DNA of 26,878 nucleotides, taken from IMG/VR virus record IMGVR_UViG_3300010883_000349, positions 1-26,878 of that record; one strand, given 5' to 3'. The translations under genes were made by a program, and so were the position numbers. Position 1 is the stretch's first letter. Each line of letters starts with the position of its first letter. The DNA comes from a virus. The notes beneath the pieces were generated by a model, which was not told the origin of the DNA, made no database searches, and saw only the letters and a program-made list of their open reading frames with translations. Positions 902-23,562 of the stretch are shown here, one piece after another.

Positions 902-1270
902 ATGAAAACATTTTTTGAATACTTAAGCGAAGAGAATATATCTAAAGAGGAAATTACCATTTTAGAAGAATCTCTACAGTCTGAATGGACTGACGAATTA
1001 GAGCAAAAGGTAGATGCTGCATTAGAAGAATTTACTAAACAGTATGCAAACGAAGATGGCACCTTTGATTTTGATAGATTCAATGAGGAATTAACAAATG
1101 AAGGTTTCTTAGGTTCTATATTCGGTGGACTTACTGGATTTGCTTTAGGTAAAACAATTGGTAAAACAGTTGCTAAGGTTTTAGGAATTCAGAAGGGTAT
1201 TTTTTACGATTTATTAACCTCGAGATTAGTTGGTGCTGGATTAGGTGCTGCTATCGGAAAATCATTCTAA
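902..1270 (+). CDS. Small glycine-zipper protein with capsid-targeting-like N-terminus
   Basis: A 122-residue protein in two clear parts. Residues 1-67 are acidic and helical and begin MKTFFEYLSEE, similar to the capsid-targeting start of T4 internal protein I (MKTYQEFIAE as I recall it). Residues 68-120 are hydrophobic and glycine-rich, with G-x3-G spacings (GFLGSIFGGLTGFALGKTIG; later GAGLGAAIG), a glycine-zipper pattern seen in membrane-active peptides. The junction reads LTNE/GFLG. It resembles the prohead-protease rule ([IL]-x-E before G/A/S) but has T at P3. If cut there (base 1103), the hydrophobic half would be released inside the head. It follows a tail-tube-like gene and a candidate AT-box promoter, so it is probably a late virion gene. 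Function is otherwise unknown; alternatives are a prohead core peptide or a holin-like protein. Confidence 0.6.
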   Translation: MKTFFEYLSEENISKEEITILEESLQSEWTDELEQKVDAALEEFTKQYANEDGTFDFDRFNEELTNEGFLGSIFGGLTGFALGKTIGKTVAKVLGIQKGIFYDLLTSRLVGAGLGAAIGKSF

Positions 1271-5035: not shown

Positions 5036-6544
5036 TTGATTTTAACTCTAACAGATGATAATCAATTCTTACGAATTGACGAAGCAGAGGAACTAGAACT
5101 AGAGCAGATTAAAATATCTTTAACTAAAAGAATTGATAGTTGGAGATTTAATCCTTTAGTTAAAAAGGGAATATGGGACGGGTATGTTTCATACATCAAG
5201 GACGATAAGTGGATTCCCGCTGGTCTTTGGAGATACGTTATGCTCGTTTGTAAGGAATATAAGTATGATCTTAAACTTAACGGAATTGAAAGATTATTTG
5301 ATAGAAACATAAGCGCAGAGGCATTCGAAACATGGGCTTTAGATTTTTTAAAAGGTAGTAAGTTTGTTACAAGAGATTATCAAATAGAAACATCGTTTAA
5401 TATTCTAAAATTTAAAAGATGTCTAGCTGAATTAGCAACATCTGCCGGAAAAACACTTATTAGTTTTTTAACAGTTGCATACATGCTAGAAAAAGAAAAA
5501 GCAGAGAAGATATTATTTATAGTACCTAATGTTTCTTTAGTTGTACAGGCACATGAAGACTTCCACGAATATAATAATAAGAATAGAATAAAATTGAAGA
5601 TTCAGCAGATATATGCAGGTCAAAAAATAAAGTCAGATAGGAACGTAGTAATAGGTACATATCAGTCTTTAGTTAAAAAACCTAAAGAATACTTTCAACA
5701 ATTCGATGCGGTTATTGTAGATGAAACACATAAGGCAAAGTCTAATTCTATTAAGACAATTCTACAAAAATGTACAAGCGCCCACTATAAATACGGTTTA
5801 TCAGGCACAATTCCAAAAGACGGAACATTAGATAAATTAACTCTAATGAGTCAAACTGGTCCTGTTATTAGTGAAGTTAAAGCATCTTTCTTACAAAGTC
5901 AAGGACATATTGCAAAGTGTAAGGTAAAGGTAATTGAAATGAATTACGCTCCTGATTCTGCTAAAAAGGCATTCGAAGAATTAGCATTTAATAAATATGA
6001 TAGGAAGGATGTTTTTCAATTAGAACAGAACTATATTATTAATTCATTCGGCAGGCTAAATTTTATATGCAATGTAATAGGTAAGGTTCCTAGAAACTCG
6101 CTTGTTCTGTTTCACAGGATAGAACATGGTAAAAAAATATACGAACAACTCCGCCAAAACTCAGATAAAAGAGTTTTTTATGTAGATGGAGGAACCGATA
6201 AAGATATCAGAGAAGAATATAAGAAGAAAATGGAAGCAGGTGATGAGGTAGTTATTGTAGCAAGTTATGGTACATTCTCTACGGGAATTTCTATTAAGAA
6301 AATACACAATATATTCTTCACAGAGTCATTTAAGTCCGAGGTGATCATCAGGCAGTCAATTGGTAGAGGTCTAAGACAACATGAGACTAAAGAGGCAGTA
6401 TTAATTGTCGATTTTGTAGATGACATTAGAACTGACGATTGGGATAACTATCTATATAAACATAGTATAGCAAGGCAGAAAATTTATAAACAAGAGAAAT
6501 TTGAGTATAGTATTAAGAAAGTCAAATTTGAAGGAGATATATAG
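5036..6544 (+). CDS. uvsW: UvsW DNA/RNA helicase
   Basis: Superfamily 2 helicase that unwinds R-loops and branched DNA, in T4 shifting replication from origin-dependent to recombination-dependent. 502 residues, almost the T4 length (503). An N-terminal domain contains SWRFNPLVKKGIWDG, like T4 YRFNPRFRYGNWDG. Motifs in order: Walker A ATSAGKT, DETH box (IVDETHKAKS), motif III LSGTIPK, a second RecA domain with VVIVASYGTFSTGIS, and motif VI RQSIGRGLRQH. The start is odd. The only start codon in frame before the conserved region is TTG at 5036, while an ATG at 5029 reads MKIDFNSNR and stops. Removing one base from ATGAAAATTGATTTTAAC would join that ATG to this frame, so a one-base indel or a true TTG start is possible. 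Confidence 0.87.
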   Translation: MILTLTDDNQFLRIDEAEELELEQIKISLTKRIDSWRFNPLVKKGIWDGYVSYIKDDKWIPAGLWRYVMLVCKEYKYDLKLNGIERLFDRNISAEAFETWALDFLKGSKFVTRDYQIETSFNILKFKRCLAELATSAGKTLISFLTVAYMLEKEKAEKILFIVPNVSLVVQAHEDFHEYNNKNRIKLKIQQIYAGQKIKSDRNVVIGTYQSLVKKPKEYFQQFDAVIVDETHKAKSNSIKTILQKCTSAHYKYGLSGTIPKDGTLDKLTLMSQTGPVISEVKASFLQSQGHIAKCKVKVIEMNYAPDSAKKAFEELAFNKYDRKDVFQLEQNYIINSFGRLNFICNVIGKVPRNSLVLFHRIEHGKKIYEQLRQNSDKRVFYVDGGTDKDIREEYKKKMEAGDEVVIVASYGTFSTGISIKKIHNIFFTESFKSEVIIRQSIGRGLRQHETKEAVLIVDFVDDIRTDDWDNYLYKHSIARQKIYKQEKFEYSIKKVKFEGDI

Positions 6545-6576: not shown

Positions 6577-8799
6577 ATGGCACAAGTTAACAAAATTTCT
6601 TCATTTAAATCGTTTACTGAGATCAGAAAACAGGAATCTGTTAGTAAACTTAGAGAAGAAAATAATTCAAAAAGACAGGATTCTGTTGGTAAAATAGCAG
6701 CAATTCTAGATGAACTAGGATTAACTTCTTTCGAAGGATTAGAAGAAGATCAAAAACAGGCAATTATTTCTAAAATATTTGGAGATGTTTCTGAAGAAGA
6801 AATAGCTGAAATAGAAGTAGAGGTAGAAGATGTTACTGAATCAGTAGTAAACGAATCATACGATTACGATGAAGTAGCACAATCTGAATTTGGAATGGAT
6901 TACGATCAATTAGGTAAAAGTGAAAAAGAATGGGTACGTGATGAAATAGACAACATGTCTGAGACTAACGGATCTGTAGTTACTGAAGGTTCTGAAAAAG
7001 AAGATGCAAAGGAAATCTTTGATGAATTAATGGATGTAAATGGCGAAGAAATCGCTGACATGGATTCACAAGAAGCCATGACTATACTTTCTAAAAGAGG
7101 AATTAGAGGTGGAAAAGCAAATAAGATTGCTAAAGAACTTTTAAAATTAACAGGTGCTATTAACGAAGCAATTGCAGTAGAAGGTAAAAGAGGCGCTAAG
7201 AAAGTATTTACTGCATATCGAAAAATAATGGATTCAATGCCAGGAATATCTCAATCTAGGGACAATAACCTGATTAAAGGATGTATTAAAGTTTTAGGTA
7301 TGTATGCTCTAGAAGATGCTAATTTCCACAGAGAAATGGCATGTATGAATAAGATAAAGGGTTCTATATCTCCTGTAGAAATTAAAGTTGCAGGATTAGC
7401 AAATATGCCAGTGAAGGTAAGTGTTAACAAAATCAAAGATGCATTACAGCAAGTCACTTCTAAAATATCATTAGCAGGTGATTGGACAGGAATCGCAATC
7501 GCAGAAGGAACAGCATTATTTTTAGATTCAATAGGAGCTACTAAAGATGGACAAGCAATGTTAGACGCTTTTAATTCCGCATTCGAATCAACCGACAATG
7601 GTACAGAGAATATGACAGTTGAGTCATTAATATTAGAAGGAACTAGAGGTCAATTTGGTAAAATAGATAATAAAGGAAATATCACATCAGTGTATACTCA
7701 TTATGATTCTTACCCAGACAACATGTTACCAATTATTAAGAAATCTTTTAAAGGTGGTAAGAACGTAGATACTGTTCTTTCTAAAGGTGCTAATTCAGGA
7801 TTAGATAGTGATATAAGTAAAATTAACTTTTATGGTGATGGTTCTGTAGCAAGCAATGGAAATATTAAAAAGATAGACCTTTATCTTAGTTCAGTAAGCG
7901 ATGATGGTGCAGAATACGTTTATTTATGGGATGAAAAGTCTAAAAAATGGATGATGGCAGATATCTACGGAAAAACTGGATTAGTTCCAGCCCTTGAATC
8001 AGTAGTTAACGAAATGAAAAAGCGATCTAAATACATCAAAGATGATTTAGTTTATAATACAAGAACTGAGACTGTTGGTATCGTCAGAATAGGTGATGAT
8101 GGATCAGGTGAAGTGAAAACTGATGCTGATGGTAATGTGAATGTAGATGAATTAGAAGTATATATGCCATTTAAATATAATTACAAAAATGCAAAGATTG
8201 CACCATCTACTAAAAAGGAAGTAATTAAGAGACGTTTATTTTATCCATTCAACGAATCAGTAGTTATTGAATCAGTCGAGATAAATGAAGCTGCTAAATT
8301 AGTAGATGAAGAAACTGGAAAGACTGTTAAATTACCATACAAGACTAAAGACTTTAGAGGAGATGCAATTACAGTTAAAGGTTTTACTGAACCACACAAA
8401 TCAAGCTCAAGTGGTAGAATTCAAACAGACCAAGGTGAGTTTTTCCCTGGCGTTGCCGGAGTTAAGATAGTAGGTCATAAATTTGAATCAGTAGTTATTG
8501 AATCAGAAGAGATAAATGAAGCAAAAATGTTTTACCTCATAGGTGATAAAGAAGTTAGTAGAGACGAAGTACTGACTTATAAATACGATAATAAAGATAA
8601 GCCAGTTGCAAAAACCGGTTGGCCAAAGTGGTTGTATACTAACACGAACTATATGACTAATAAGCCACTCGAATGGGACTCTATCAAAAAAGATATGAAA
8701 GGTCTTGAAAAGAAATATGGAAAAGGTAATGTAGTAGTAGGTGGTGCAACTAACGGAGGAGGAACTTACATAGAGATATACTCAAAATCTCAAAAATAA
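6577..8799 (+). CDS. Modular capsid-internal polyprotein (740 aa) with prohead-protease-like sites
   Basis: No overall family is recognised. The N-terminus has ISSFKSFTEIRKQES, similar to T4-type capsid-targeting sequences. Internal sites fit the T4 gp21 rule ([IL]-x-E before A/G/S): INE/A after residue 197 (base 7167), ILE/G after 354 (7638), INE/A after 571 (8289) and INE/A after 648 (8520). VTE/G after 137 and VNE/S after 93 are near matches. Between sites lie small separate domains. One, just after residue 354, contains VYTHYDSYPDNMLP, like a 'Y-x-H-x-D-x-Y-P' domain seen in many phage proteins of unknown function. The linkers around 560-572 and 637-649 are near-identical at DNA level (8254-8291 and 8485-8522). 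A hairpin terminator follows. Inferred role: packaged, cut and injected host-takeover proteins. The role is a hypothesis; the repeated linkers are directly visible. Confidence 0.65.
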   Translation: MAQVNKISSFKSFTEIRKQESVSKLREENNSKRQDSVGKIAAILDELGLTSFEGLEEDQKQAIISKIFGDVSEEEIAEIEVEVEDVTESVVNESYDYDEVAQSEFGMDYDQLGKSEKEWVRDEIDNMSETNGSVVTEGSEKEDAKEIFDELMDVNGEEIADMDSQEAMTILSKRGIRGGKANKIAKELLKLTGAINEAIAVEGKRGAKKVFTAYRKIMDSMPGISQSRDNNLIKGCIKVLGMYALEDANFHREMACMNKIKGSISPVEIKVAGLANMPVKVSVNKIKDALQQVTSKISLAGDWTGIAIAEGTALFLDSIGATKDGQAMLDAFNSAFESTDNGTENMTVESLILEGTRGQFGKIDNKGNITSVYTHYDSYPDNMLPIIKKSFKGGKNVDTVLSKGANSGLDSDISKINFYGDGSVASNGNIKKIDLYLSSVSDDGAEYVYLWDEKSKKWMMADIYGKTGLVPALESVVNEMKKRSKYIKDDLVYNTRTETVGIVRIGDDGSGEVKTDADGNVNVDELEVYMPFKYNYKNAKIAPSTKKEVIKRRLFYPFNESVVIESVEINEAAKLVDEETGKTVKLPYKTKDFRGDAITVKGFTEPHKSSSSGRIQTDQGEFFPGVAGVKIVGHKFESVVIESEEINEAKMFYLIGDKEVSRDEVLTYKYDNKDKPVAKTGWPKWLYTNTNYMTNKPLEWDSIKKDMKGLEKKYGKGNVVVGGATNGGGTYIEIYSKSQK
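8254..8291 (+). repeat. 38-bp linker repeat, copy 1
   Basis: First copy of a 38-base direct repeat that encodes the linker ESVVIESVEINEA of the 740-residue protein, including a predicted protease site. It differs from copy 2 (8485-8522) at two adjacent positions near the middle (TC against AA). The 193 bases between the copies encode one complete small module. Confidence 0.9.
8485..8522 (+). repeat. 38-bp linker repeat, copy 2
   Basis: Second copy, encoding ESVVIESEEINEA, in the same reading frame as copy 1. The spacing from copy 1 is 231 bases, a multiple of three. Recombination between the copies would therefore remove or duplicate exactly one module (77 codons) without shifting the frame. 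Confidence 0.9.
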
Positions 8800-8807
8800 A
8801 AAAAAAA

Positions 8808-8840
8808 TAAACTGACCTGGATTTTTCCGGGTCAAGTTTA
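8808..8840 (+). terminator. Hairpin, probable transcription terminator
   Basis: TAAACT-GACCTGG (8808-8820) pairs with CCGGGTC-A-AGTTTA (8827-8840), with one bulged base and one G-U pair, around a six-base loop (ATTTTT). It follows the stop of the 740-residue gene by 8 bases. There is no long U-tract, so termination may be partial. Confidence 0.6.
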
Positions 8841-8861
8841 TTAATTATATTAGCTATATAC

Positions 8862-10241
8862 ATGGAACTAAATAACAACTTTGTAGATTTTATTCAACAT
8901 CATGCAGACTCACATGGTATGACAAGAGAAGAATATGTTGCACACTATTTAAGTGAGAACAAAAGGAAAGTCTTATCGTTTGACGAATATATTGTTGAGA
9001 AGTATACTGTACTTAAAGAAGAATTAATTCTAGAAGGCGGTGCAGCAGGTCACATGTCACATCCATTCGATGAAAGAGATTTAACATTTGCAGATTTTAA
9101 AAAGATCGTAACATCAGGTCTTCAAGGAGAATTAAACTTCGAAGAAGAACCTACTGAAAAAACAGATGGACAAAATGTATTTGCAACAGTACAAGATGGC
9201 GAAGTAAAATTTTCAAGAAATAAAGGTGGTTTAAAAAATCCTATGGATTTAAAATCATTTAAAGATAAATTCGAAGGACACGCTAGTAAATTAGTTCAAG
9301 ATACTTTTCAATTTGCTGCTGAAGATTTAGCAAATGCTTTAATAAAATTATCACCTAAAGATTTAGAAGTTTTTGATAATGGTAAAAACTGGATGAACAT
9401 GGAATTAATTTATTCTAAGAATCCAAACGTTATCTACTATGATCGTGATGTTATTCAATTTCACGGTATTAAGAAAACTGACGGAGAAGGTAATTTTATC
9501 GGAGATGATAATAAATCAGCCGCTGCAATAGTTAAAGCGCTAGAAGGTGTTAAAGCTAATATAGGAAAGATATTCACCGTAATTCCCCCACAAATTGTTA
9601 AAATAGGTAAAGATCTTAATTTTGATAAAAATCAATCTAAATTTATAAAACAAATAGAAACATTAAGAGATCGTTATAATTTAACAGATGCTGATGAAGT
9701 TTCTAGATATCACGAAATGTGGTGGAGAGAAACGATAGATACAAATTTCCCTGATTTACAACAAGACTATAAAGAAGGTTTATTATTAAGATGGGCGTAT
9801 GCTGACAAAAAGACACTTAATTTAAGATCTTTAGATAAAACATTAGGAAAAGACAAATCAGCTCTTATTAAGAAATTTGATAAAGAAGATGTTAAAAAGA
9901 AATATAAAGAAAACATTAGACCGTTTGAAGATTTGTTCTTAGAACTAGGATCTATAATTCTTAAAAATGCTTCTAATTTTGTAGCAGCAAATCCTGACAA
10001 GGAGATGCAAAGACTGCATAATCAGATTAGAACAGAAGCAGACAAGATCAAAAAAGGAGGTGAAGTTGACCAGGTTAATAGAGTAATGAAAGAACTTGAT
10101 AGACTTGATAGAATTGGAGGAATAGAATCTATCATACCAACTGAAGGAATAGTTTTTGTATATAAAGGAAAGACTATGAAATTAACAGGAACTTTTGCTG
10201 CCATCAATCAGTTGATGGGAATCATAAAGTACGGAAGATAA
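8862..10241 (+). CDS. Ligase-type nucleotidyltransferase with cleavable capsid-targeting leader
   Basis: A 459-residue protein of the covalent nucleotidyltransferase (DNA/RNA ligase) fold. Motif I is K100-T-D-G (PTEKTDGQN), where Lys100 would carry AMP. SRNKG (about 118-122) supplies the motif Ia-like Arg. Glu181 in WMNMELIY fits motif III, E428-G-I-V-F fits motif IV and K440-L-T-G fits motif V. Which nucleic acid it joins, or whether it ligates at all, is not shown. Residues 1-58 form a leader containing VLSFDEYIVEK and ending ILE/GGAAGHMSHPFD. A prohead-protease cut after Glu58 (base 9035) would release a mature enzyme starting at Gly59. A GGAAGHM-type start and K-T-D-G-Q-N are, as I recall, also found in T4-like marine phages. 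It lies beside a second ligase-like gene. Confidence 0.65.
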   Translation: MELNNNFVDFIQHHADSHGMTREEYVAHYLSENKRKVLSFDEYIVEKYTVLKEELILEGGAAGHMSHPFDERDLTFADFKKIVTSGLQGELNFEEEPTEKTDGQNVFATVQDGEVKFSRNKGGLKNPMDLKSFKDKFEGHASKLVQDTFQFAAEDLANALIKLSPKDLEVFDNGKNWMNMELIYSKNPNVIYYDRDVIQFHGIKKTDGEGNFIGDDNKSAAAIVKALEGVKANIGKIFTVIPPQIVKIGKDLNFDKNQSKFIKQIETLRDRYNLTDADEVSRYHEMWWRETIDTNFPDLQQDYKEGLLLRWAYADKKTLNLRSLDKTLGKDKSALIKKFDKEDVKKKYKENIRPFEDLFLELGSIILKNASNFVAANPDKEMQRLHNQIRTEADKIKKGGEVDQVNRVMKELDRLDRIGGIESIIPTEGIVFVYKGKTMKLTGTFAAINQLMGIIKYGR

Positions 10242-10251
10242 ATAATATAAT

Positions 10252-12123
10252 ATGGCACTTAAAAAACTAAGACAAGTATTTCAGGAAACTAACATCAATG
10301 CATTTCAAGATATGTTGAATAGCAGGGTTCTAGTAACTGAAAAAATACAAGGAGCTTCATTTCACGTTAGAAGAAACCAGACTAAATTCGAATACTATAA
10401 ATCTGGAGATTCTAGAATGAACATGATAGATAGAACGATAGTAGGTTTATATGAAACAGGTGTCAAGCACATTCAAAGTTTAGATCCTAGTATAAAGGAA
10501 CAAATGCCACATGATTGGAAATTTGGTTTTGAATATTTACCTGAACTAAATGTTTCAGACTATAAATATTCTAAACTACCTAAAAATAATTTAATACTTA
10601 CTCACATTCAAACTATGAATGAATCTGGTAAGATTAAAAAAACAATCAGCGATCCAGTTATATTAAATAAATGGTCTAAGATATTAGAAGTACAAGGACC
10701 CAGTATCATATTTGATGGTATGCTATCTCAACTTCAAAAGGAAGAATTAATAACTATTTTATCTATGTCAGATAAAGAGTTTTCAGAAGCATTTGATTAT
10801 GACCCAAACACGGATTCAAAGTTATCATTTACACAAAGGATAATTAAGACATTTAATCAAAACGCGGTTTCTCCTACTCTAAATGAAGATTTTGAAGTAG
10901 AGATTGACGGATTAATAGTTTCATTTATCGATGAGAAAAAATCTAGATCTTTTAAATTAGAAGATTTCAAAAGAACTGTAGATGAAAATAAGAGATCTAG
11001 CCACATGTATCAGATTACAATAGCTGGTCTTATAGAGTTTATTTCTACATTTGAAATGAAAGATATTCAATTAAACGAAGAAAATGCAGATTGGAGATAC
11101 ATTGAATTAATGTCAGTATTGTTTAACACATACGTTAAAGAACATTCTGCTAAATTCATTGGAGTTAATTTCGAGTCAGCTGATTTTGCTGATTCAGATT
11201 CTTTTAAACTAAATACTAAATACATTAAGAATGAAACAACTCTTTCTTATGTTGAAAACTCAATACTTGCAGAATTATTTAAAATAACACTAGGTTCTTT
11301 TAGAAAAAAGAGAAGTAAAGAAAGTGATATTATAAATGCAGAAATGTTAGAGCATTTAAATCAAATAGTAGAAACTATAGACAAGAAAGTATTTGTTGAA
11401 AACACAGATGAAAATTCAATATATGATTTTAATAATTTTATATTACATAATAGAGTAAAGTCAAGTGTTAATTTAAATGAAGCTCTTAAAGTAGATCATC
11501 CTGAACAAGGAGGAGAATTAGTGAATATGTTTGTTGGTAGATTTCAACCATTTACACTTGGACATGCCAAGGTATTAGAAACTATTCATAAAGAAAACGG
11601 CCATCCTGTTGTAGTTCTATTAGTAAAAGCTAAGAACAAGAAAAAGGAAGATGCATTTAAGAGACCTTATGACGAGAAGACACAATTAGATATGTTCAAA
11701 GCAGTTCAAAGACAATATCCATTCCTAAAAGAAATTTTTGTAATTCCAACTGGAGGTATTGATACTATGTTCAACGCAATGAGACCTAAATATGAACCCG
11801 TATTATGGGGAACAGGAAGTGATAGAATGAAAACCTATGGATTCCAAGTAAATAAAGATTCTTATAGAGAAGATCTTGGAGTTAGAAGTGATTTTGGATT
11901 ATTTGAAATTCCAAGAACAGACGATAATATTTCAGCTACTCAGGTTAGAAATGCGATGTTAGACGGAGATGAAAAACTATTTAAGTCTACAACACCAAAG
12001 GCCTTACATAAAATGTATGGTGAACTTAAGAAAAAATTAGAAGATTCAGTAGGTACTTCAGAATCAAATGAAGTTACAGAATCATTATTAACATTTAAAC
12101 AATTTTTAGAAAACAATGGATAG
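10252..12123 (+). CDS. Fusion of ligase-type nucleotidyltransferase and NMNAT-like adenylyltransferase
   Basis: A 623-residue two-domain protein. Residues 1 to about 400 look like an RNA-ligase-type nucleotidyltransferase: motif I K31-I-Q-G (VTEKIQGASFHVRR), motif III with Glu94 (FGFEYLPE), motif IV EIDGLIVSF (217-225) and motif V around Lys235 (RSFKLEDF). Residues about 422-600 are an NMN adenylyltransferase-like domain with GRFQPFTLGH (429-438; Thr replaces the first His of HxGH) and the ISATQVR signature (560-566). Between them lies LNE/A (after residue 410, base 11481), a perfect gp21-type cleavage site, so the two enzymes may be separated in the capsid. The last 14 residues (ESLLTFKQFLENNG) resemble a capsid-targeting segment placed at the C-terminus. 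The stop overlaps the next gene by 8 bases. Substrates are not shown by the sequence. Confidence 0.7.
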   Translation: MALKKLRQVFQETNINAFQDMLNSRVLVTEKIQGASFHVRRNQTKFEYYKSGDSRMNMIDRTIVGLYETGVKHIQSLDPSIKEQMPHDWKFGFEYLPELNVSDYKYSKLPKNNLILTHIQTMNESGKIKKTISDPVILNKWSKILEVQGPSIIFDGMLSQLQKEELITILSMSDKEFSEAFDYDPNTDSKLSFTQRIIKTFNQNAVSPTLNEDFEVEIDGLIVSFIDEKKSRSFKLEDFKRTVDENKRSSHMYQITIAGLIEFISTFEMKDIQLNEENADWRYIELMSVLFNTYVKEHSAKFIGVNFESADFADSDSFKLNTKYIKNETTLSYVENSILAELFKITLGSFRKKRSKESDIINAEMLEHLNQIVETIDKKVFVENTDENSIYDFNNFILHNRVKSSVNLNEALKVDHPEQGGELVNMFVGRFQPFTLGHAKVLETIHKENGHPVVVLLVKAKNKKKEDAFKRPYDEKTQLDMFKAVQRQYPFLKEIFVIPTGGIDTMFNAMRPKYEPVLWGTGSDRMKTYGFQVNKDSYREDLGVRSDFGLFEIPRTDDNISATQVRNAMLDGDEKLFKSTTPKALHKMYGELKKKLEDSVGTSESNEVTESLLTFKQFLENNG

Positions 12124-13195
12124 GTACGATTTCGAAAGAGCACTTCATAATGCTGCAAAAACCAATGCTGAAAATGAAGCATTAATTATAGAATCCTATA
12201 TTGGAGCTGCATCGACAGGGAGTAAAGCTAGCCAACAGAATTTATTTAATTCAATTAATAAAAATTTTAAAAAGAATATATGTCCATGGCAAGGTGTTAA
12301 GTTTACTTCAACATCAGATGTTAAACAACAACCCGATGGCAGGTTGTGGATTTCTAAAATGGATGACAATACATTCGGAGTAGTTTTTAATTATTTAAAT
12401 TTAAATAAAAAAGAAGCAAACGAATTGTTTAATATTGGAAGAGACGATAATGGAATTGGTGCTGGAGAAATAATGCTAGCATATATTGTAGAAAATATAA
12501 AAATAGGTGGAGGTTCTGCCGATACTGATTTAGAATTATTCAATGAAAAGTGGGCACCAATTAGTCCACCGAATGGTAAATGTGAGTTAAAAGAAGCTCA
12601 ATCGTCAAAGGGCATGTTACAGAATTGGAGAACAGGTGCAAAACACCAGAAAATTAATAGTGATTATGTACCAGAGCTTACGGCATTATACGACGCAGTA
12701 AAACATAAAATTAAAGAAATCAACCCTGATGGAGATGGTAAAGATATGGCTGCCTCTGGCGGTTGGATAAATGAATGGGGAACCGTTGGTGGAAAAAGAT
12801 TTAAGCATATTCAAAATTTAACTAAGGAAGATATTCAAGCCCTTTCTTCTAGTGAAAGAGATTTTAAAATAGGTCCTGGAGAAGAAGACAATGGTGCATT
12901 AGTAATTAAATATAATGACGTAGAATTAGGAAAACTAAGTGACTCTAAAACTGCAGAAAAAATTAAAAAAATATTAGATACTTCAGCTTCTGTTAGAACA
13001 TTTACTGAAATACAAGACGATGTAATATCAGCAGTAGGAGATATCGATACCCCATTCCTTTATATAGAGTCTAAGGCACATAAAATGGTAGCTTTTCATT
13101 ATTATAAGAGATTACCTAGTAAAACTAGCGAACTACAAATCTATTCTATTACACAGGGTAAATTTAAATATAAAATAAAGCCTAAAAGCGTTTAA
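12116..13195 (+). CDS. Unknown internal-protein-cluster member, possible PD-(D/E)XK nuclease fold
   Basis: A 359-residue protein of no family I can name. It starts in the last 8 bases of the ligase/NMNAT gene. An early IIE/S (after residue 26, base 12193) fits the prohead-protease rule, as in its neighbours. Residues 116-160 read GAGEIML, then an Asp (136 or 138), then KCELKEAQ (about 155-162), a spacing compatible with the E…D…ExK core of PD-(D/E)XK nucleases. The match is short and could be chance. The rest has basic and aromatic segments (SGGWINEWGTVGGKRFKHIQ at about 214-233) but no diagnostic motif. It is probably co-expressed with the two ligase-like genes upstream; whether they act together is not known. 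Confidence 0.55.
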   Translation: MDRYDFERALHNAAKTNAENEALIIESYIGAASTGSKASQQNLFNSINKNFKKNICPWQGVKFTSTSDVKQQPDGRLWISKMDDNTFGVVFNYLNLNKKEANELFNIGRDDNGIGAGEIMLAYIVENIKIGGGSADTDLELFNEKWAPISPPNGKCELKEAQSSKGMLQNWRTGAKHQKINSDYVPELTALYDAVKHKIKEINPDGDGKDMAASGGWINEWGTVGGKRFKHIQNLTKEDIQALSSSERDFKIGPGEEDNGALVIKYNDVELGKLSDSKTAEKIKKILDTSASVRTFTEIQDDVISAVGDIDTPFLYIESKAHKMVAFHYYKRLPSKTSELQIYSITQGKFKYKIKPKSV

Positions 13196-13215
13196 ATAAA
13201 TAAATATAAATAAAA

Positions 13216-16179
13216 ATGAGCACTAAAAAAACATTTGAAAGTTTTGTAAATTCCGTGAATGAAAACGTGGATGCATACAAAGTATACAAGAAAGTTTCCG
13301 GAAAATATTCTCTGAGAAAACCTTCATACTGGGGAGATCTATTTAATAGTAGCGCTTCGATACCATATAAAGAATTAAGAAAATTCGATAAAGAATTAAA
13401 TTCTTTAGACGTATATACGACTAGAGAACTAGGATGTCATAGTGAATATCCTATGCAAGCTAATTTTAAAGTTCAAGTACCTCAGGTTTTTGTGCTATAT
13501 TGTAATACTGAAGGCGGAGAGCTAGGTGAATTTTACGGAATGAGTATTCTAGTAAATACAGAAGGTGCAACGTATCCAAGATATGCATGTGGTATGCCAG
13601 ACTTTGAACCAGAATTACATAATTTCGCAAATGGAATTCCTGAAAGCTATTTAGATATCGTAACAACAGGTGCTCAATTACTGTACGAATCTATTGATAA
13701 AACATCTGATGAAGATAGACAACATTATGATTTTCTATTAACACTAAGGGACTCTGGTAAAACTAACATGTTTGGTGCAGCTCCTTATTTGCAAAAAGAA
13801 TTCGGTATGAGTAAGAAAGAAGCTAGGGAAGTATTATCAAAGTGGATGAAAAGATTTAATGAAGGTAAGTTAACTGAAGCTAAAAGAGCTGGTCTTTCTA
13901 AAAAAGAAACTTTAAAAGTTGCACAGAAATTTGCGGATGCTCTTACCAAATTAGATGGTAAAAAATATACAGTTAGTTCTGATTATGAAGAAGATTCATT
14001 TGATCTAGATATTGACGGTGATGAATATGCAGGTGGTTCATATAATATTAATGATGATGGTTCAGTAGTTAACATGGCAACATGGAACCGTAAAACAAAC
14101 GTATCACCAACTTACGGTAATATGGATGATGATATTAAAACTATTATAAAGACTATTAAAAACATAAAAGAATCATCAGTTACTGAAGCAACTGTAATAA
14201 TGGATGCAATAGATCCTAAATCAAATGTACTTAAAAAACTTTTAAAGAAACATAATGTTAAAATGAAAGTTTTAACAATGAATGGACCAGGTGGTGGCCA
14301 CCCAGAAGTTGAAATGACAGGTTCACGTGAAGATTTGCAAGCAGTATTAGCTGATCCTAACGGATGGGATGATGCAGACCTAGGAGAGTATATTGAAGAA
14401 TCTAATATATTAGAAGCTAGATCTATTAATAAGATTTCAAAAGAGTTTGGAGAAACTGTAGGAAAGATGAAAGATATTGTAAAGATATACATCGCTGCAG
14501 CAGATGGAAGTGATGAGAAAGCAACAACTAGACAGCAGCTAATAGATCTAACACAAAAGAAGAAAGCTCTTGTAAAAGAACTAGATGACGCCGTAGCTGG
14601 TAAAAACAAAGATGTAAAATTAGTTATTAGCGAAGGTGTTATGTCTGACATTCACCAGATGATAGGTAATCACAAATCCTTTGATACTTTTCAGAAAGAA
14701 TTCTTTAAAGAATATGGACATAAGAAAGTGATGAAAAAAACTCCAGAGTTTTTAGAATGGTTAAAGGCACTATATAACGATTTTGAATATGCCGTTGAAG
14801 AAAAGTATACTAAAAAGTCATTATTAAAAAAATTAGGAGATGCAGACGATGCAATGATTCAAACCGGAAACGGAAAAGAATACATCATCTATAATCCCGA
14901 TTCTAATAACGATGATAATGCTGCAATGTGGCATGATAAATCAGTATTTGCCGTAGACCAAGACGGAGAAGAGCATGAAATATCATATAAAGATATAGGA
15001 TTAGTAATGGTAGAATCTATAGTTACTGAAAATTCAGTTACGTTTACATTGGATGATGGTGATTTAGACGATAAGTTTTTATCTGACAAGAGTCTTTCTA
15101 GAAATCTAGATTATAAAGAGGATGGTCGTGATACTTATTATGTTTTACCAAAAAGAGATTTTGATAGATTACAGGATTGGGCAGATACTAGTGGATATGA
15201 TACTGATGAAGTAATCGAAGTAATAGAAGAATCAGTAATTACTGAAGCTAATGGACAAACAGTAAAGGAGTTTGGCGATCTTCTTGCATTATTATTAGAT
15301 GAAGATAGCGGACTCGATATTGAACGTGCTATTATCGCAATGGCTCCAAACAAGGCCAGAGTTTTAGAAAAGCAAATTTCTACGTTGTATAAAAAACTAT
15401 TTGATCTTACAAACCAAGGGTTTGATTTAAGAGAAGTTACTGAATCTAAAATTCAAATAAAAAGAAGATATACTGATAATCATCCTGCACAAACTTCTGG
15501 TAGAAAAGCCACAGTTAGAAATGCAATGATAGAAGCTTTAGCCGATAGCGTATTAACAGAAGAAGAGTTTAATAATATTCTAAAAGAAAAATCCATTGAC
15601 AATAAAAGATGGATGAGAAGAAATTCTAAATACTTTAAAGTAAGTGAAGGTGGAATTACTCTTTCTAAATTTGGAAAAAGAATATTGACTGGAATTAAAC
15701 CAGTTGTTAATTTAACATTAGAATCTTTTATTACAGAAAAAGCTAATATATCAGGAGCTTATAATGATTTAGAAAATTTATTAGGAACTGACATGGAAAC
15801 CATGGATGATTTTCAAAGAATTGAAAATGATGGTACATGGGAAGAAATGTCAGATTTTATAGAAATGGCCGGAGATGCTGAAGTATTAAGAAGACATAAA
15901 TTTAAATCACAAAAAGATATCGATAAATTAGCTAAATATGTTATGGGAGAATCTGTAGTTAATGAAGCTAATTATATCAAATTTAAAGGAAAGAAAGTAG
16001 ATATTAGTTCATTAGAAATGGAAGATGTTGATATGAAAGATTATCCAGATTTTTCTGATGCATACTTTAGTTATGGAGAATATTCTAATGGAAAAGAAAT
16101 GACTGACGAAGAATTATCAGATTTTACAGATGATAATTTAGATCTAGCTAATGAATTAGCGCATGACTCCTTACATTAA
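13216..16179 (+). CDS. Large modular capsid-internal polyprotein (987 aa), about nine predicted modules
   Basis: The N-terminus (KKTFESFVNSVNE) is capsid-targeting-like. Internal linkers of the type E-S-x-[VI]-x-E precede predicted prohead-protease sites. They lie after residues 221 (LTE/A), 324 (VTE/A), 400 (ILE/A), 473 (ISE/G), 677 (ITE/A) and 917 (VNE/A), with variants at 605 (VTE/N), 743 (VTE/S) and 841 (ITE/K). The intervening pieces are about 70-130 residues, mostly acidic, and look like independent domains; the first (1-221) is larger. Module 228-325 is homologous to residues 18-118 of the next protein. The last module (918-987) contains KDYPDFSDAYF. No enzymatic motif is recognised. 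The leader is a pure A/T stretch with no Shine-Dalgarno match. Inferred role: store of small proteins packed in the head and released after cleavage. Confidence 0.65.
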   Translation: MSTKKTFESFVNSVNENVDAYKVYKKVSGKYSLRKPSYWGDLFNSSASIPYKELRKFDKELNSLDVYTTRELGCHSEYPMQANFKVQVPQVFVLYCNTEGGELGEFYGMSILVNTEGATYPRYACGMPDFEPELHNFANGIPESYLDIVTTGAQLLYESIDKTSDEDRQHYDFLLTLRDSGKTNMFGAAPYLQKEFGMSKKEAREVLSKWMKRFNEGKLTEAKRAGLSKKETLKVAQKFADALTKLDGKKYTVSSDYEEDSFDLDIDGDEYAGGSYNINDDGSVVNMATWNRKTNVSPTYGNMDDDIKTIIKTIKNIKESSVTEATVIMDAIDPKSNVLKKLLKKHNVKMKVLTMNGPGGGHPEVEMTGSREDLQAVLADPNGWDDADLGEYIEESNILEARSINKISKEFGETVGKMKDIVKIYIAAADGSDEKATTRQQLIDLTQKKKALVKELDDAVAGKNKDVKLVISEGVMSDIHQMIGNHKSFDTFQKEFFKEYGHKKVMKKTPEFLEWLKALYNDFEYAVEEKYTKKSLLKKLGDADDAMIQTGNGKEYIIYNPDSNNDDNAAMWHDKSVFAVDQDGEEHEISYKDIGLVMVESIVTENSVTFTLDDGDLDDKFLSDKSLSRNLDYKEDGRDTYYVLPKRDFDRLQDWADTSGYDTDEVIEVIEESVITEANGQTVKEFGDLLALLLDEDSGLDIERAIIAMAPNKARVLEKQISTLYKKLFDLTNQGFDLREVTESKIQIKRRYTDNHPAQTSGRKATVRNAMIEALADSVLTEEEFNNILKEKSIDNKRWMRRNSKYFKVSEGGITLSKFGKRILTGIKPVVNLTLESFITEKANISGAYNDLENLLGTDMETMDDFQRIENDGTWEEMSDFIEMAGDAEVLRRHKFKSQKDIDKLAKYVMGESVVNEANYIKFKGKKVDISSLEMEDVDMKDYPDFSDAYFSYGEYSNGKEMTDEELSDFTDDNLDLANELAHDSLH
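13897..14190 (+). repeat. Duplicated protein module, copy 1
   Basis: Residues 228-325 of the 987-residue protein. Shared with copy 2: AQKFAxAL, then DGK, then DLDxDGDExAGGxY, a short turn, VNxAT, YGxxDD and a final linker with a predicted protease site. The similarity is plain at protein level but DNA identity is only moderate, so the duplication is not recent. Confidence 0.85.
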
Positions 16180-16183
16180 AAGA

Positions 16184-16191
16184 TATATAAT
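16184..16191 (+). promoter_or_regulatory. AT-box TATATAAT, candidate late promoter -10
   Basis: Second copy of the GATATATAAT decamer also found at 869-878. It lies 23 bases before the ATG at 16214 and 4 bases after the previous stop. Candidate promoter or mRNA start for the 448-residue gene and those after it. Confidence 0.25.
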
Positions 16192-16213
16192 ACTATAAAC
16201 AAAACAATATAAA

Positions 16214-17560
16214 ATGAAACTATACACTAACTTCGATAATTTTATCAATGAAGCACAGGTTATAAAGCAGAAAGATACTGCTAAAATAGCACAAAAATTT
16301 GCATCTGCTCTTTCAAAGTCGGATGGTAAGGAATTTACAATTTCTAAAGATTCACTAGATGCTGGAGGATGGGATTTAGATATGGATGGTGATGAATTTG
16401 CCGGAGGAACTTATTTTATCGGAGATGCTGGTGAAATAGTAAATGCAGCAACAAGCAATGATGTATATGGCCACATTGACGATAGCGAAGCTGAATTAAT
16501 TAAGACACTTAAAAAAGGTAAATTTGCAAAATACAGAGCAACTGAATCTTTAGAACTTAATGAGGCTCTAGCTTCTTCTAAGTTAAGAGGATTAATAGAC
16601 ATCAAAAAAGGTGGTAAGGAATTAATTAAAGGTATATATGGTCTTGCTAAAATAGCACTAGATAAAGTCACCGATGACATGATAATTTCTAATAGCAACC
16701 CGGTTGAAGTATATAAGAAAGCAAAAACATTCGGAAACGTAATTGTATTTTGGATTTCTAGAAATGAAAAAGAAAATGAGTATGCACCTGATAGTGGATA
16801 TGCATCTAATAAGGATTATCGCGAAATGATTCCTGGAAATTGCTTATTAGCTGTTTCTAATGGAAAAAATGAAATGTTTCAGAACGATTCAATATGGACA
16901 AGAGACGAAAGCGGAAAAAGCAGAATAAACTCTAGAAGACTTAAGAACATGGGTAAATATCCTGGATCTAAAGATACTGTCGGTGTTAACAAATCACACA
17001 ACCAATATAGTGGTACCGGATTAGGTAACATTAAAAGAATTGCAGAAGTGTCTGATGAATGTTACATTATTAATCTAGACGCATTAAGAGATTCTTTATC
17101 TACTAATGACAAGACAACTTCAAGAGCAGAGGCAAAGTCTGGTGCTACGGCACTGACAGATCCTAAGAAAGTTAAAGAGGCAAACATGACAAGATACAAT
17201 GAAATTCTTGCTAAGAGAGCCGATAACCCAGATGCAATAGATAAAAAAGTTAAAGAAATTATCGAAGATGCACACCAATTCTTAATGGCTGGTTTAGCGA
17301 AGAAAGAACTTGGAAATTATAATGAATTGACAATAGGAAAAGATCCAAAAGGAAGAGAAATCAGACCAAGAGATTTAAATAACTATATTTCAAATATATT
17401 GTCAGATTATCAAGGATATGTATCAGCATACGTTAATATGAAAACTGAAGAAGAACAATACGGAACAGCCTCTTCATATTATATGAGAGATGCTAAGCGT
17501 AAAGCCCTAGAGCTTAAGCAAAGAATAGCTAAATGGGATAATAAAAATATAGTATGGTAA
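16214..17560 (+). CDS. Modular capsid-internal protein (448 aa)
   Basis: Begins MKLYTNFDNFINE/AQV. This is very close in form to the T4 internal protein I start, with a perfect gp21-type site after residue 13 (base 16252). A second site, LNE/A, follows residue 117 (base 16564). Residues 14-117 are homologous to module 228-325 of the preceding 987-residue protein. Residues 118-448 form one larger domain with no recognised family. It has a FGNVIVFWISRNEKE strand region, a Tyr/Gly-rich stretch (NQYSGTGLGNIKRIAE) and a long charged helical C-terminus. The stop overlaps an ATG of the next gene (ATGGTAA). Function unknown. The organisation suggests two mature products after prohead cleavage: a small duplicated module and a larger domain. 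Confidence 0.65.
   Translation: MKLYTNFDNFINEAQVIKQKDTAKIAQKFASALSKSDGKEFTISKDSLDAGGWDLDMDGDEFAGGTYFIGDAGEIVNAATSNDVYGHIDDSEAELIKTLKKGKFAKYRATESLELNEALASSKLRGLIDIKKGGKELIKGIYGLAKIALDKVTDDMIISNSNPVEVYKKAKTFGNVIVFWISRNEKENEYAPDSGYASNKDYREMIPGNCLLAVSNGKNEMFQNDSIWTRDESGKSRINSRRLKNMGKYPGSKDTVGVNKSHNQYSGTGLGNIKRIAEVSDECYIINLDALRDSLSTNDKTTSRAEAKSGATALTDPKKVKEANMTRYNEILAKRADNPDAIDKKVKEIIEDAHQFLMAGLAKKELGNYNELTIGKDPKGREIRPRDLNNYISNILSDYQGYVSAYVNMKTEEEQYGTASSYYMRDAKRKALELKQRIAKWDNKNIVW
16265..16567 (+). repeat. Duplicated protein module, copy 2
   Basis: Residues 18-118 of the 448-residue protein, homologous to copy 1 at 13897-14190. Here the module sits directly behind a capsid-targeting leader; in copy 1 it sits in the interior of a polyprotein. 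In both cases predicted protease sites flank it. Confidence 0.85.
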
Positions 17561-17562
17561 TT

Positions 17563-17805
17563 ATGAAACACATTAAATTATTTGAACAATATATTAACGA
17601 AGGCGCTATAGATCTATTAGCCGATGAAATAGAAGATGCAAAAACATATGACGCATTTTCTGATGGAAATTCAGTTCAAGCAAGATCAACTAAAAAAACA
17701 TGGGACGACGGTGTTCCAGTTTTAAAGTATATCGCTAGAGCTCCAAAGAAATCTGTTAAACTACCTAAGGAATTTAAAGTAGTAGACGATACTAAATATG
17801 GATAG
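17563..17805 (+). CDS. Short capsid-internal protein, possibly truncated by an in-frame TAG
   Basis: An 80-residue protein starting MKHIKLFEQYINE/GAID, a capsid-targeting leader with a perfect gp21-type site after residue 13 (base 17601). I chose the ATG at 17563 over an in-frame ATG at 17554 because it gives the leader the same form as its neighbours; the upstream start would add MVI. The frame ends at TAG (17803-17805), but the codons after it stay open for 25 more and read like protein (see 17806-17880). The full-length ancestral protein was probably about 105 residues, ending three bases before the next gene. Function of the domain is unknown. Confidence 0.55.
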   Translation: MKHIKLFEQYINEGAIDLLADEIEDAKTYDAFSDGNSVQARSTKKTWDDGVPVLKYIARAPKKSVKLPKEFKVVDDTKYG

Positions 17806-17880
17806 TGGTATTTACAAATATCAGGAGTATGGTACGGTATTGAACAAGACGATTACGGAACTCCACCCTTTGAATATTAA
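17806..17880 (+). other. In-frame continuation past TAG: readthrough tail or decayed 3' end
   Basis: After the TAG the same frame encodes 24 residues starting WYLQISGVWYGIEQ and ending YGTPPFEY, then TAA at 17878-17880. The stretch is rich in Trp, Tyr and Gly, unlike non-coding DNA of this AT-rich genome. It ends three bases before the next ATG, the tight spacing typical of this cluster. It may be a nonsense mutation, TAG readthrough or a sequencing error. Confidence 0.5.
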
Positions 17881-17883
17881 GAT

Positions 17884-19455
17884 ATGGAATTAAACGAAAA
17901 CTTATCACTAGGCGATATGGCCGGAATGGGAGAAGTCTCTCTACCAACTGAAACATCAGTTGGATCAGGGGATATTCCAGCTGGAAAAGGAGATGCTGAA
18001 GAAGAGTATAAGAAAAAGAGGAATAAAAAGAAACAAAAGGAAATGAAGAACATACACTCATTTGAATCTTTCAATGAATCAATCAATGAAGGTAAATTTG
18101 ATAATATCGCTGACTTAGCTAAATCTTTACATTTCGAAATGGATCCTAAAACTGCCGAAGAAAAGAAAATCGAACTAGGTAGAAGACAAGGTGAGATTAG
18201 CAAAAGAAAGCAAATTGAAGGAGGTAACTATTCACTAAGAAGATTTAGAAAAGAGATTGGATATTGGAACGGTAATAAAAGAGACCAAGAATGGGCAGAA
18301 GATGTATTTGCTGGACCAGAACATTATAATACTGTAAAGTCAACTTTAGGTGCAGGGCCACATGCAAAAGCTGCTAAGAAAGTAAAATGGACTCAAAAGA
18401 AATATGACCAATGGTTAGAAGATGTTGCATCAAATGACGGTTGGAAGAATGCTTTTGATATGGCACAGAATGCTAAGAACGAACCAGGACTTATTGATTG
18501 GGTGAAAAAGAATAATAGAGGTGAAGATGCAATGCAAAGAATCCAATGGGATATTGAAGCATTTGCAGAATCAACAGTTACTAAGTTGACTCATTTAAAA
18601 TCTATTAATGAATCAGCTGTTATTGATAAGACAACAGATGATGAGATATTTGATTCAGAGGAATTATATACTATAAGTAAAGTTTTAGCTATTGCTAGAA
18701 AATATAAATTAGCTAAAAACGAAGGAGGTAACTTCGAAGATGGAATTGCAATGGCTGAAAAGTTAAAAAAAGAATTACCACAACATAAATTTCAATGTAT
18801 AGTTTATAGAACAGAATGGAACTATGGAGGTAATTTAGTATTAACGATTGCATTAAGAGGTAATTCTTACAACACTGAAGTATTTAAATTTAATTCTAAC
18901 AATTCAACAAGACAACCTAATTATTCTTTTTCAAAGTTATTTAATGGAACTATTAAACCATCTGATGGCAAAGTAGAAGACGAATGGGGTATGGGAATAG
19001 TTCATGGTGGATATCAAGCTATTTCTAGCTTTGATAAATTCATGGATGATGTCGTTGGAGTATTTAAAGATTATAAAAGAGTAAATGGAAAAGAATTTGA
19101 CATGAAAGTTGCTTTAGCACAGTTTAAAGCCGGCGCTAAGATATTAGACGAGTGGAAAAGACTTAAGCCAAGAATAGAAAAGCAATATGAGGTTGCAAAG
19201 GCAAGCGGAAGAAAAGCACATAGAAATATTGAGATCAGACTGCCTTATATTAGAACAGCTGAAAAGAAGGTTTATTATAAGACAGACGAGCCAAGAGAAT
19301 TAAGACATCCTGACGAGTATGGAGAAAGAGCTTATGATATTATAGATGGAAAAGACTATGCTAAATATGAAGCAGCACAGGCTAAGATATCAGATATAAT
19401 TGAAAAATTCTGTAAAAAACACAAATTTGAATTTGTATGGGCTGCTAGCTGGTAA
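17884..19455 (+). CDS. Capsid-internal protein (523 aa) with an extra N-terminal extension
   Basis: Residues 1-53 are unlike the rest: MELNENLSLGDMAGMG, then a Ser/Gly-rich stretch ending GSGDIPAGKGDAEEEY and a poly-Lys/Arg run. Met54 (base 18043) then starts MKNIHSFESFNESINE/GKF, a typical capsid-targeting leader with a gp21-type site after residue 69 (base 18090). This looks like two genes joined in frame, the first ending in the basic run. A second site-like INE/S follows residue 243 (base 18612), after a leader-like THLKSINES. It would divide the protein into a Trp/Lys-rich domain (70-243) and a C-terminal domain (244-523) containing WNYGGNLVLTIALRG and ending FVWAASW. No family is recognised. 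A strong terminator follows, closing the internal-protein cluster. Confidence 0.6.
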   Translation: MELNENLSLGDMAGMGEVSLPTETSVGSGDIPAGKGDAEEEYKKKRNKKKQKEMKNIHSFESFNESINEGKFDNIADLAKSLHFEMDPKTAEEKKIELGRRQGEISKRKQIEGGNYSLRRFRKEIGYWNGNKRDQEWAEDVFAGPEHYNTVKSTLGAGPHAKAAKKVKWTQKKYDQWLEDVASNDGWKNAFDMAQNAKNEPGLIDWVKKNNRGEDAMQRIQWDIEAFAESTVTKLTHLKSINESAVIDKTTDDEIFDSEELYTISKVLAIARKYKLAKNEGGNFEDGIAMAEKLKKELPQHKFQCIVYRTEWNYGGNLVLTIALRGNSYNTEVFKFNSNNSTRQPNYSFSKLFNGTIKPSDGKVEDEWGMGIVHGGYQAISSFDKFMDDVVGVFKDYKRVNGKEFDMKVALAQFKAGAKILDEWKRLKPRIEKQYEVAKASGRKAHRNIEIRLPYIRTAEKKVYYKTDEPRELRHPDEYGERAYDIIDGKDYAKYEAAQAKISDIIEKFCKKHKFEFVWAASW

Positions 19456-19523: not shown

Positions 19524-19916
19524 ATGGACAGGATGAGATTCGCATTAATAGCGCACGATAATAAGAAAGCAGACATGGTAGCCTTTGTCTCTAAGAGATT
19601 AGATTTTTTTAATAATGAAGCAGTAGATATAGTTACGACTGGAACAACTGGTGAAAAGGTTAGGCATGCTGGAATTAACAGGGTTGCCACAGTAAATAGT
19701 GGACCTTTAGGCGGAGATGCAGAAATAGCGGCAATGGTAGTCAGAGGAGAAATCACAGGCGTGATATTCATGAGAGACCCTCTGGATAAACATCCACATG
19801 ATGTAGATATATCAATGTTAATGAGACTTTGCGATGTCCATGACATCCCCTTGGCTACCAACTACAGCATGGCAAGCATTCTTATCAAGTGGTATCGATC
19901 TAGGTATAAAATATAA
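19524..19916 (+). CDS. mgsA: Methylglyoxal synthase
   Basis: Converts dihydroxyacetone phosphate to methylglyoxal and phosphate, a bypass of lower glycolysis. 130 residues against about 152 in E. coli, with a shorter C-terminus. Key features are present: an ALIAHDNKK start (His11, Asp12, Lys15), the phosphate-binding TGTTG (39-43), SGPLGGD with the catalytic Asp65, and RDPL followed by HPHDVD with His92 and Asp95. These correspond to E. coli Asp71, His98 and Asp101. IPLATN near 108-113 matches the family end. All catalytic residues are kept, so it is probably active. It directly follows a terminator and is first in a short metabolic segment. In a phage this is an auxiliary metabolic gene; its benefit (phosphate release, toxicity or diversion of triose phosphate) is not shown. 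Confidence 0.88.
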   Translation: MDRMRFALIAHDNKKADMVAFVSKRLDFFNNEAVDIVTTGTTGEKVRHAGINRVATVNSGPLGGDAEIAAMVVRGEITGVIFMRDPLDKHPHDVDISMLMRLCDVHDIPLATNYSMASILIKWYRSRYKI

Positions 19917-23292: not shown

Positions 23293-23562
23293 ATGAAAAA
23301 TATTCTCGAAGAAGCAAACGAAATCGTAAACAATAGAAGTGAAGAAGCAGATCGTAATTACGGTCCTTTTTCAGAAGGTATGGACAGGGCCGCCCTCATA
23401 TTTAAAGGTATGACAGGCCATGATGTAAATGGCGCTGATATGTTTAAGGCATTAGTTGCTCTTAAGTTCTCAAGAGAAAGTTACAATCATAAAAGAGATA
23501 ATCTTTTAGATGCAGTAGCATATATTCAAGGTTTAGATAACTACGTAAACGAAAATAAATGA
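23293..23562 (+). CDS. DUF6378-like phage protein
   Basis: An 89-residue protein with the pattern I associate with DUF6378: an ILEEANEIVNNR start, DRNYGPFSEGMDRAA (R-x-x-x-Y-G), then MFKALVALKFSRE and a DNLLDAVAYIQGL helix. The Asp and Glu positions in helical segments recall all-alpha nucleotide pyrophosphohydrolases, but no enzymatic activity is established for the family as far as I know. It overlaps the next gene by four bases. TATAAT 17 bases upstream of the ATG is a possible promoter -10 element, though a matching -35 is not evident. Confidence 0.6.
   Translation: MKNILEEANEIVNNRSEEADRNYGPFSEGMDRAALIFKGMTGHDVNGADMFKALVALKFSRESYNHKRDNLLDAVAYIQGLDNYVNENK

Follow-up and report, generated by a model that had tools for sequence, protein, structure and literature searches.

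The closest described counterparts of the proteins considered here are the internal proteins of phage T4, which are separate and small and undergo a single N-terminal cut (Alt is also cut at its C-terminus); the T4 head protease gp21 follows the rule L/I-x-E, and the first ten residues of IPIII are sufficient for packaging (PMC9026906). IPII and IPIII both begin with MKTYQEFIAE↓A (here and below, the arrow marks a cut or a site of this type). Each of Ip1, Ip2 and Ip3 is an inhibitor of one GmrSD restriction enzyme (PMC12373910); which hosts a phage can enter is therefore decided by its packaged cargo. Among cyanophages, gp154, gp155, gp156 and gp160 of S-CREM2 have been detected in purified virions (PMC10665884). 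The first of these, gp154, is nicotinamide mononucleotide adenylyltransferase (NMNAT)-like, starts with MKNFSSFLTE↓A and is encoded shortly downstream of UvsW, as is the gene cluster described here. This cluster occupies positions 6577-19455 of the 26,878-base IMG/VR virus record IMGVR_UViG_3300010883_000349 (hereafter the window, meaning the whole stretch of DNA analysed), and suggests an extension of the T4 strategy: marine T4-like phages apparently join many small exchangeable proteins in chains cleavable by the head protease, probably in order to load a set of payloads into the head, cut them there, and inject them with the DNA.

The window is a fragment of a T4-like phage genome, as indicated by the myovirus markers gp32 (PF08804) and UvsW inside it, and by an S77 protease and Gp23 (PF07068) in its relatives. 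The cluster consists of eight consecutive open reading frames (ORFs), over which the cleavage sites assigned to seven proteins by the initial annotation are in fact spread:

6577..8799, + strand: P1, polyprotein of 740 residues, with junctions after E93, E137, E197, E354, E479, E571 and E648.
6838..6987, + strand: 45-residue module YDEVAQSEFGMDYDQLG...EKEWVRDEIDN in P1, bordered by the linkers VVNE↓S and VVTE↓G.
7639..8013, + strand: module GTRGQFGK... (phrog_1987) in P1, lying between LILE↓ and VVNE↓.
8862..10241, + strand: P2, 459 residues, with a targeting-like leader KVLSFDEYIVE...LILE↓GG, followed by a nucleotidyltransferase-like enzyme.
10252..12123, + strand: P3, 623 residues, with an N-terminal domain carrying an EKIQG motif, the junction LNE↓A at 11479-11481, then an NMNAT-like domain.
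12116..13195, + strand: P4, 359 residues, with a site after E26 conserved only among close homologues; the weakest member of the cluster.
13216..16179, + strand: P5, polyprotein of 987 residues in nine segments, with leader KKTFESFVNSVNE↓N and junctions after E221, E324, E400, E473, E605, E677, E743, E841 and E917.
14170..14207, + strand: one linker as it appears in the DNA (GAATCATCAGTTACTGAAGC, ESSVTE↓A), belonging to repeat families with 6838, 7995, 8254, 8485, 15004, 15220 and 15940.
16214..17560, + strand: P6, 448 residues, with a conserved leader MKLYTNFDNFINE↓A, a module shared with P5, the junction LNE↓A (E117) and a C-terminal module.
17554..17805, + strand: P7, 83 residues, a single module behind the leader MKHIKLFEQYINE↓G.
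17884..19455, + strand: P8, 523 residues, with an internal leader MKNIHSFESFNESINE↓G (18088-18090) and the junction INE↓S (18610-18612).

The 18 coordinates first listed as cleavage sites each correspond to the third base of an in-frame Glu codon, and the rule [IL]xE before A, G or S fits 16 of them, the close variants being 14187 (VTE↓A) and 15966 (VNE↓A). The nine-part composition of P5 was also recovered. Other parts of the initial annotation had to be amended: the E-S-[VI]-[VI] prefix, said to precede many sites, occurs in this strict form before 4 of the 18 only, the looser E-S-x(1-3)-[ILVM]-x-E being more general, and segments in all eight proteins span about 40 to 410 residues, for which the proposed 70-130 is too narrow. 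Strict matches number 23 in the eight ORFs against 9.4 expected from residue shuffles; the ORFs that do not belong to the cluster have 10, with 7.9 expected. With an enrichment of about 2.5-fold, some matches must be due to chance, for example E310 of P1, which is modelled within a helix. The site rule by itself is thus modest evidence, and the key question is whether the sites coincide with junctions between modules.

Searching viral contigs with the 987- and 740-residue proteins gave 130 related loci, several of them on contigs of 160-178 kb. In one of these (L014), the neighbouring P2 and P3 are 96% identical to those of the window, yet the polyproteins differ by whole blocks, and P5 shares with a 1072-residue counterpart (L001) window residues 1-160, 321-606, 716-841 and 912-987, while the intervening parts differ. 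Block ends in the window proteins lie within 5 residues of [ILV]xE in 34 of 83 cases, against 18.3 ± 4.0 in a rotation null (0 of 1000 rotations as high). Among the 1448 breakpoints of 135 non-redundant proteins, 423 fall within 6 residues of [ILV]xE↓[AGS] (null 191 ± 13, z 17.6), 202 near [ILVM]NE↓[AGSQ] (null 69) and 179 near E-S-x(1-3)-[ILVM]-x-E (null 63), whereas control patterns, with D, K or S/T/N at cleavage position P1, or a polar residue or Gly at position P3, give z values from -3.2 to 0.6 on the same breakpoints. Near breakpoints, the linkers harbor L, V or I at position P3, mostly N or T at position P2, and mostly S, A or G at position P1', with E and S enriched at positions P6 to P4 ("position" distinguishes these labels from the protein names). 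Junctions supported beyond those listed initially are E93, E137 and E479 of protein P1, and E16, E605, E743 and E841 of P5.

When the proteins are cut at linker-type sites, 232 segment families are obtained, 64 of which have at least three members, and 49 module families have at least two different neighbours on both sides. For example, the module ATVIMDAI... is present in P5-like, P1-like and P6-like chains, and the 45-residue module of P1 is found in about 50 proteins, with varied neighbours and mostly xNE sites on its flanks, and once as a short single-module protein with the leader MKTFKEFINE↓G (L116). At another locus (L053), a chain in which P5- and P6-type parts are fused has a whole leader, Met included (MKTKFIYESFGDFINSLNE↓S), in its interior; these features are read as traces of the fusion of formerly separate internal proteins. 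At the DNA level, the linkers (GAATCAGTAGTTAATGAAGC-like) form the largest direct-repeat families of the cluster, which would help module exchange. A scan for the E-S linker over the whole contig of a large relative (G001) ranks the homologues of P5 (7 against 0.33 expected) and P1 (5 against 0.45) highest, with the major capsid protein (2 against 0.07) after them.

The upstream contexts of eleven window modules, searched across all loci and counted if distinct, point in the same direction: [ILVM]xE stands directly before the module in 102 of 108 contexts, whose upstream sequences are often unrelated, and the chance level for the same junction search window is 23%; close relatives contribute partly redundant contexts, and the number of independent events is therefore not 108. 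The module GTRGQFGK has a site at the junction in all 12 of its distinct contexts, which include ESLILE↓, STVLNE↓, NYVINE↓, SFMLTE↓, VLIEE↓, SALLLE↓, EELNE↓ and AIIEE↓. It also occurs free-standing in Streptococcus phage Javan123 and in the cyanophages ACG-2014f and S-T4 (the cyanophage matches being weak, E 0.01-0.02), and its residue 1 aligns with residue 2, after the initiator Met, of all three proteins, so that a cut after E354 of P1 would recreate their N-terminus.

P1 has the architecture of shuffled modules, with homology breakpoints at 89-93, 194-197, 349, 479 and 566. The P2 site after E58 (ILE, VLE or VME before GG) is kept in every listed homologue down to 71% identity, and the relatives of P2 begin at the leader, which is internal in the window protein. 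The P3 junction is retained as [LIV]xE↓A in 9 of 9 distinct contexts, ahead of a domain (residues 426-567) that matches PF01467 (E 1.3e-8). P5 junctions are backed by breakpoints, junction contexts, low-confidence positions in the structure model and module replacement in L001 and L014. P6, which shows homology with P5, keeps its E117 site in 12 of 12 distinct contexts. The P7 domain is found again within polyproteins of 446-507 residues (L048, L040, L042), the match beginning at the site, and relatives of P8 carry roughly 60-200 additional residues inserted at E69, the site being kept in 9 of 10 contexts. P1, P5, P6 and P8 are multi-module proteins, and the single cargo typical of T4 is seen in P7 only.

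In the structure model of P5, compact domains appear where the alignment is deep (residues 325-393, 404-462, 473-530 and 533-600), and in the P1 model most junctions fall in disordered stretches. Beyond residue 187, P5 has 12 linker-type sites, chosen from motif and breakpoints and not from the model; all of them lie within 3 residues of a stretch with a predicted local distance difference test (pLDDT) score below 50 (5.5 expected by rotation, P 0.003), several of the 12 being close neighbours and not independent, against 0 of 8 other [ILV]xE in this protein. On these models the linker junctions are likely disordered; the burial of sites, which the initial annotation had regarded as telling against its proposal, is not seen in P5, whose linker sites are modelled between domains and outside buried elements.

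A gp21-type protease, another point on which the initial annotation called for a search, is present as S77 in 15 of 16 large relatives (E down to 2.8e-33), with active-site motifs that align with those of T4 gp21, and in 7 of 10 contigs of a second search (one genome overlapping with the first). The S77-less relative is also without a recognisable major capsid gene, and its contig is therefore probably incomplete. In G001, G007 and others, the protease lies in apparent S77-scaffold fusion frames of about 680-830 residues. Such a long frame is the form taken in the group closest to the window; that of G001 (G001:125939-127999, or L146:5940-8000) has the portal and the major capsid protein genes on its two sides and encodes 686 residues, which include the motifs GELDHP and SSR of T4 gp21. 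Position and composition suggest that its C-terminal part is the scaffold, whereas in T4 protease and scaffold are separate genes. This fusion contains the sites VNE↓S, ISE↓A and VNE↓A, the first of which separates protease from scaffold. Capsid-targeting sequences ending in a gp21 site are borne by P6 and P7, in a variant form of the T4-type sequence by P5, and internally by P2 and P8, and the leader pattern is found in G001 at 10 of 177 ORF N-termini (2 of them doubtful), against 3 of 1008 internal Met-led 26-mers. On virion content, the remaining point raised by the initial annotation, the bearing is indirect: gp154 of S-CREM2, a related protein detected in virions, has a leader of this type.

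Taken together, these observations are consistent with the following mechanism. In most chains, a leader at or near the start, resembling the capsid-targeting sequence of T4, would direct the chain into the core of the prohead. Linkers E-S-x-x-[ILV]-[N/T]-E↓[A/G/S], which resemble the cleavable end of the leader, join the folded modules, so that during head maturation the S77 protease, cutting after Glu, would release leaders and modules inside the head, and the freed modules would be ejected together with the DNA. As the short junction sequence is common to all linkers, these are places where modules can be gained, lost and swapped. The proposal of the initial annotation, a head protease maturing a whole set of stored proteins, is thus strengthened by breakpoints, junction conservation and free-standing homologues, and we consider it probable that the cluster represents internal proteins of the T4 type, fused into polyproteins whose domains have been shuffled and which the head protease would take apart. 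Whether this amounts to a combinatorial delivery of swappable anti-defence or host-takeover payload cassettes, with linkers serving both as head cutting sites and as recombination joints between phages, is in our view an even bet.

Several points weigh against packaging and cutting, two steps that we infer, as we do ejection and a host-takeover or anti-defence role of the modules. There is no S77 protease gene within the 27-kb window fragment, the targeting leader of P1 is only partial, and P3 and P4 are without an N-terminal one. At diverged sites, position-specific retention is 0.64 for E against 0.47 for flanking positions, and 0.69 against 0.60 for the hydrophobic residue, and other [ILVM]xE[AGSN] matches are retained almost like the linker sites. 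Comparison between relatives does little or nothing to back the listed sites 12193, 15246 and 8520 individually, and the structure models are of low confidence (mean pLDDT 57 for P5 and 54 for P1). In addition, the authors of the S-CREM2 study allow for co-purification of the detected proteins (PMC10665884).

Could these chains be modular and yet never be cut? They would then be multidomain virion or cytosolic proteins, in which E-S-x-x-x-E serves as a flexible linker and, in the DNA, as a short repeat for recombination. The size of the linker repeat families, the lack of a leader in P3 and the weak position-specific retention are in line with this, and breakpoints by themselves show recombination, not cutting. 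However, even where the upstream sequences differ, [ILVM]xE↓[AGS] is found precisely where the domains begin, with cleavage positions P3 and P1 fixed and P2 free, which fits the gp21 rule and not a DNA repeat. It is also the motif with which N-terminal leaders terminate and one that the protease-scaffold fusion contains, and free-standing homologues begin with what, in the chains, directly follows the site; uncut chains are regarded as unlikely.

More doubtful still is a sacrificial core, in which scaffold-like chains (as T4 gp22, gp67 and gp68) would be cut up and expelled with no payload. In T4, the core proteins are indeed cut into several fragments, most of which exit the head (PMC9026906), and the site pattern has 11 matches in T4 gp22 and four in gp68, but in the cluster the linker sites spare folded modules, some of which are enzyme-like (NMNAT), modules turn over rapidly between close relatives, unlike scaffold, and portal, capsid and scaffold genes lie elsewhere, with a scaffold of their own. 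As for mere chance, a weak three-residue rule is bound to yield many matches in Glu-rich proteins, 9.4 strict matches being expected in the eight ORFs, and it may account for some listed sites that are without independent support; for the site set as a whole it is highly improbable, being already contradicted by the coincidence with breakpoints (z 15-18, with clean controls) and by the 102 of 108 junction contexts, as well as by the 7 linker motifs of the P5 homologue against 0.33 expected in the genome-wide scan.

Leader-like N-termini and conserved genes are also found around the cluster and in other phages. Two neighbouring features of the window are relevant here:

5036..6544, + strand: UvsW helicase (PF21241/phrog_16), upstream neighbour of the cluster and synteny anchor with the cyanophage locus encoding virion-detected proteins (S-CREM2 map).
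902..1270, + strand: further ORF with a T4-like leader, MKTFFEYLSE↓E, outside the cluster, with a counterpart among the leader-bearing G001 ORFs.

The product of 902-1270 is small, has a glycine-zipper-like region, and might be packaged and act on membranes. A further site-like leader at an N-terminus outside the cluster, MKVEVRRTEYRYIAE↓AG, is encoded at 23559-23912 and is conserved in G001, as is a methylglyoxal-synthase-like protein (PF02142, E 6e-13) at 19524-19916, directly after the cluster. In the Kyanoviridae phages Melnitz (L154:1574-6237) and HTVC008M (L153:589-5833), unannotated proteins encoded after the primase-helicase have the leader-like N-termini MQGFKTFLSE↓A, MLSFTGYSNLSE↓A and MKKFSEIIE↓A, and the Melnitz set includes an NMNAT/DUF5824 protein.

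The motifs EKTDG, EGIVF and KLTG, on which the class assignment is based, make the second part of P2 nucleotidyltransferase-like. Motifs typical of ligase/capping nucleotidyltransferases (KxDG/KxxG-like and EG) are found in P2 and in the N-terminal part of P3 (10252-11400), beside the NMNAT-like domain, and homologues of the two proteins adjoin each other in a 462-kb uncultured phage; packaged RNA-repair or NAD (nicotinamide adenine dinucleotide) enzymes are possible. A relationship between P2 and the DUF6267 protein of Melnitz was considered, as both adjoin an NMNAT gene and have a K-x-DG-like motif, but was dropped for want of significant similarity. Pfam, PHROGs and NCBIfam gave almost no module functions beyond the NMNAT-like domain of P3 and weak or unknown families. 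PADLOC models, a library mainly not of defence inhibitors, had no match for seven proteins, and Foldseek and VIA-align found no significant fold match for the P1 and P5 models, which says little because these models are large and of low mean confidence. P5 had no tblastn match in 50,697 phage records. The cultured Flavobacterium phage immuto (L151/L163) was rejected as a carrier of the large polyproteins, as it has an S77 protease but a two-module relative only; this phage, which carries one of the modules, also has annotated queuosine-type genes and DpdA, suggesting 7-deazaguanine-modified DNA.

By analogy, the cluster modules may have a role similar to that of Ip1-3. A polyprotein format would supply many factors in a fixed ratio behind one leader, to be exchanged cassette by cassette. 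The junction motif offers a simple way to recognise dozens of probably packaged domains from sequence and to set their boundaries (64 families with at least three members here), and brings an old question within direct reach of testing: what, apart from DNA, large phages inject. In the open-licence literature searched, no description was found of packaged polyproteins with a protease site at every junction.

How does the cluster compare with known systems? In RNA viruses and retroviruses, the virus's own protease also separates proteins at short linkers, an analogy that implies no kinship; in the cluster, by contrast, cutting would take place inside a DNA phage prohead and module shuffling is extensive. 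The head and ejection proteins of phiKZ and SPN3US are processed by an S77-type protease (gp175 / gp245) that cuts after Glu, several times per protein, with the short rule S/A-x-E, A-x-E, but these multiple cuts remove long N-terminal propeptides that are lost, and not inter-module linkers (PMC10052503). T4 gp22, gp67 and gp68 resemble the cluster in having many [IL]xE sites per chain, and differ in being degraded and mostly expelled, with no shuffled folded modules. The virion-detected cytidylyltransferase gp154 of S-CREM2 shares with P3 its NMNAT-like domain and its position downstream of UvsW, and has a T4-like leader, but is a single protein outside any polyprotein. The closest likeness is with T4 IPI, IPII, IPIII and Alt, through the leader MKxYxxFIxE↓A, the rule [LI]xE, a gp21-type protease (in the relatives), fast cargo turnover and some single-module members (P7, L116). 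Unlike them, the cluster has up to about ten modules per chain, with sites at the junctions and modules shuffled between chains. What is new with respect to T4-type internal proteins is therefore the presence of several cargoes per chain, the targeting and protease features being kept.

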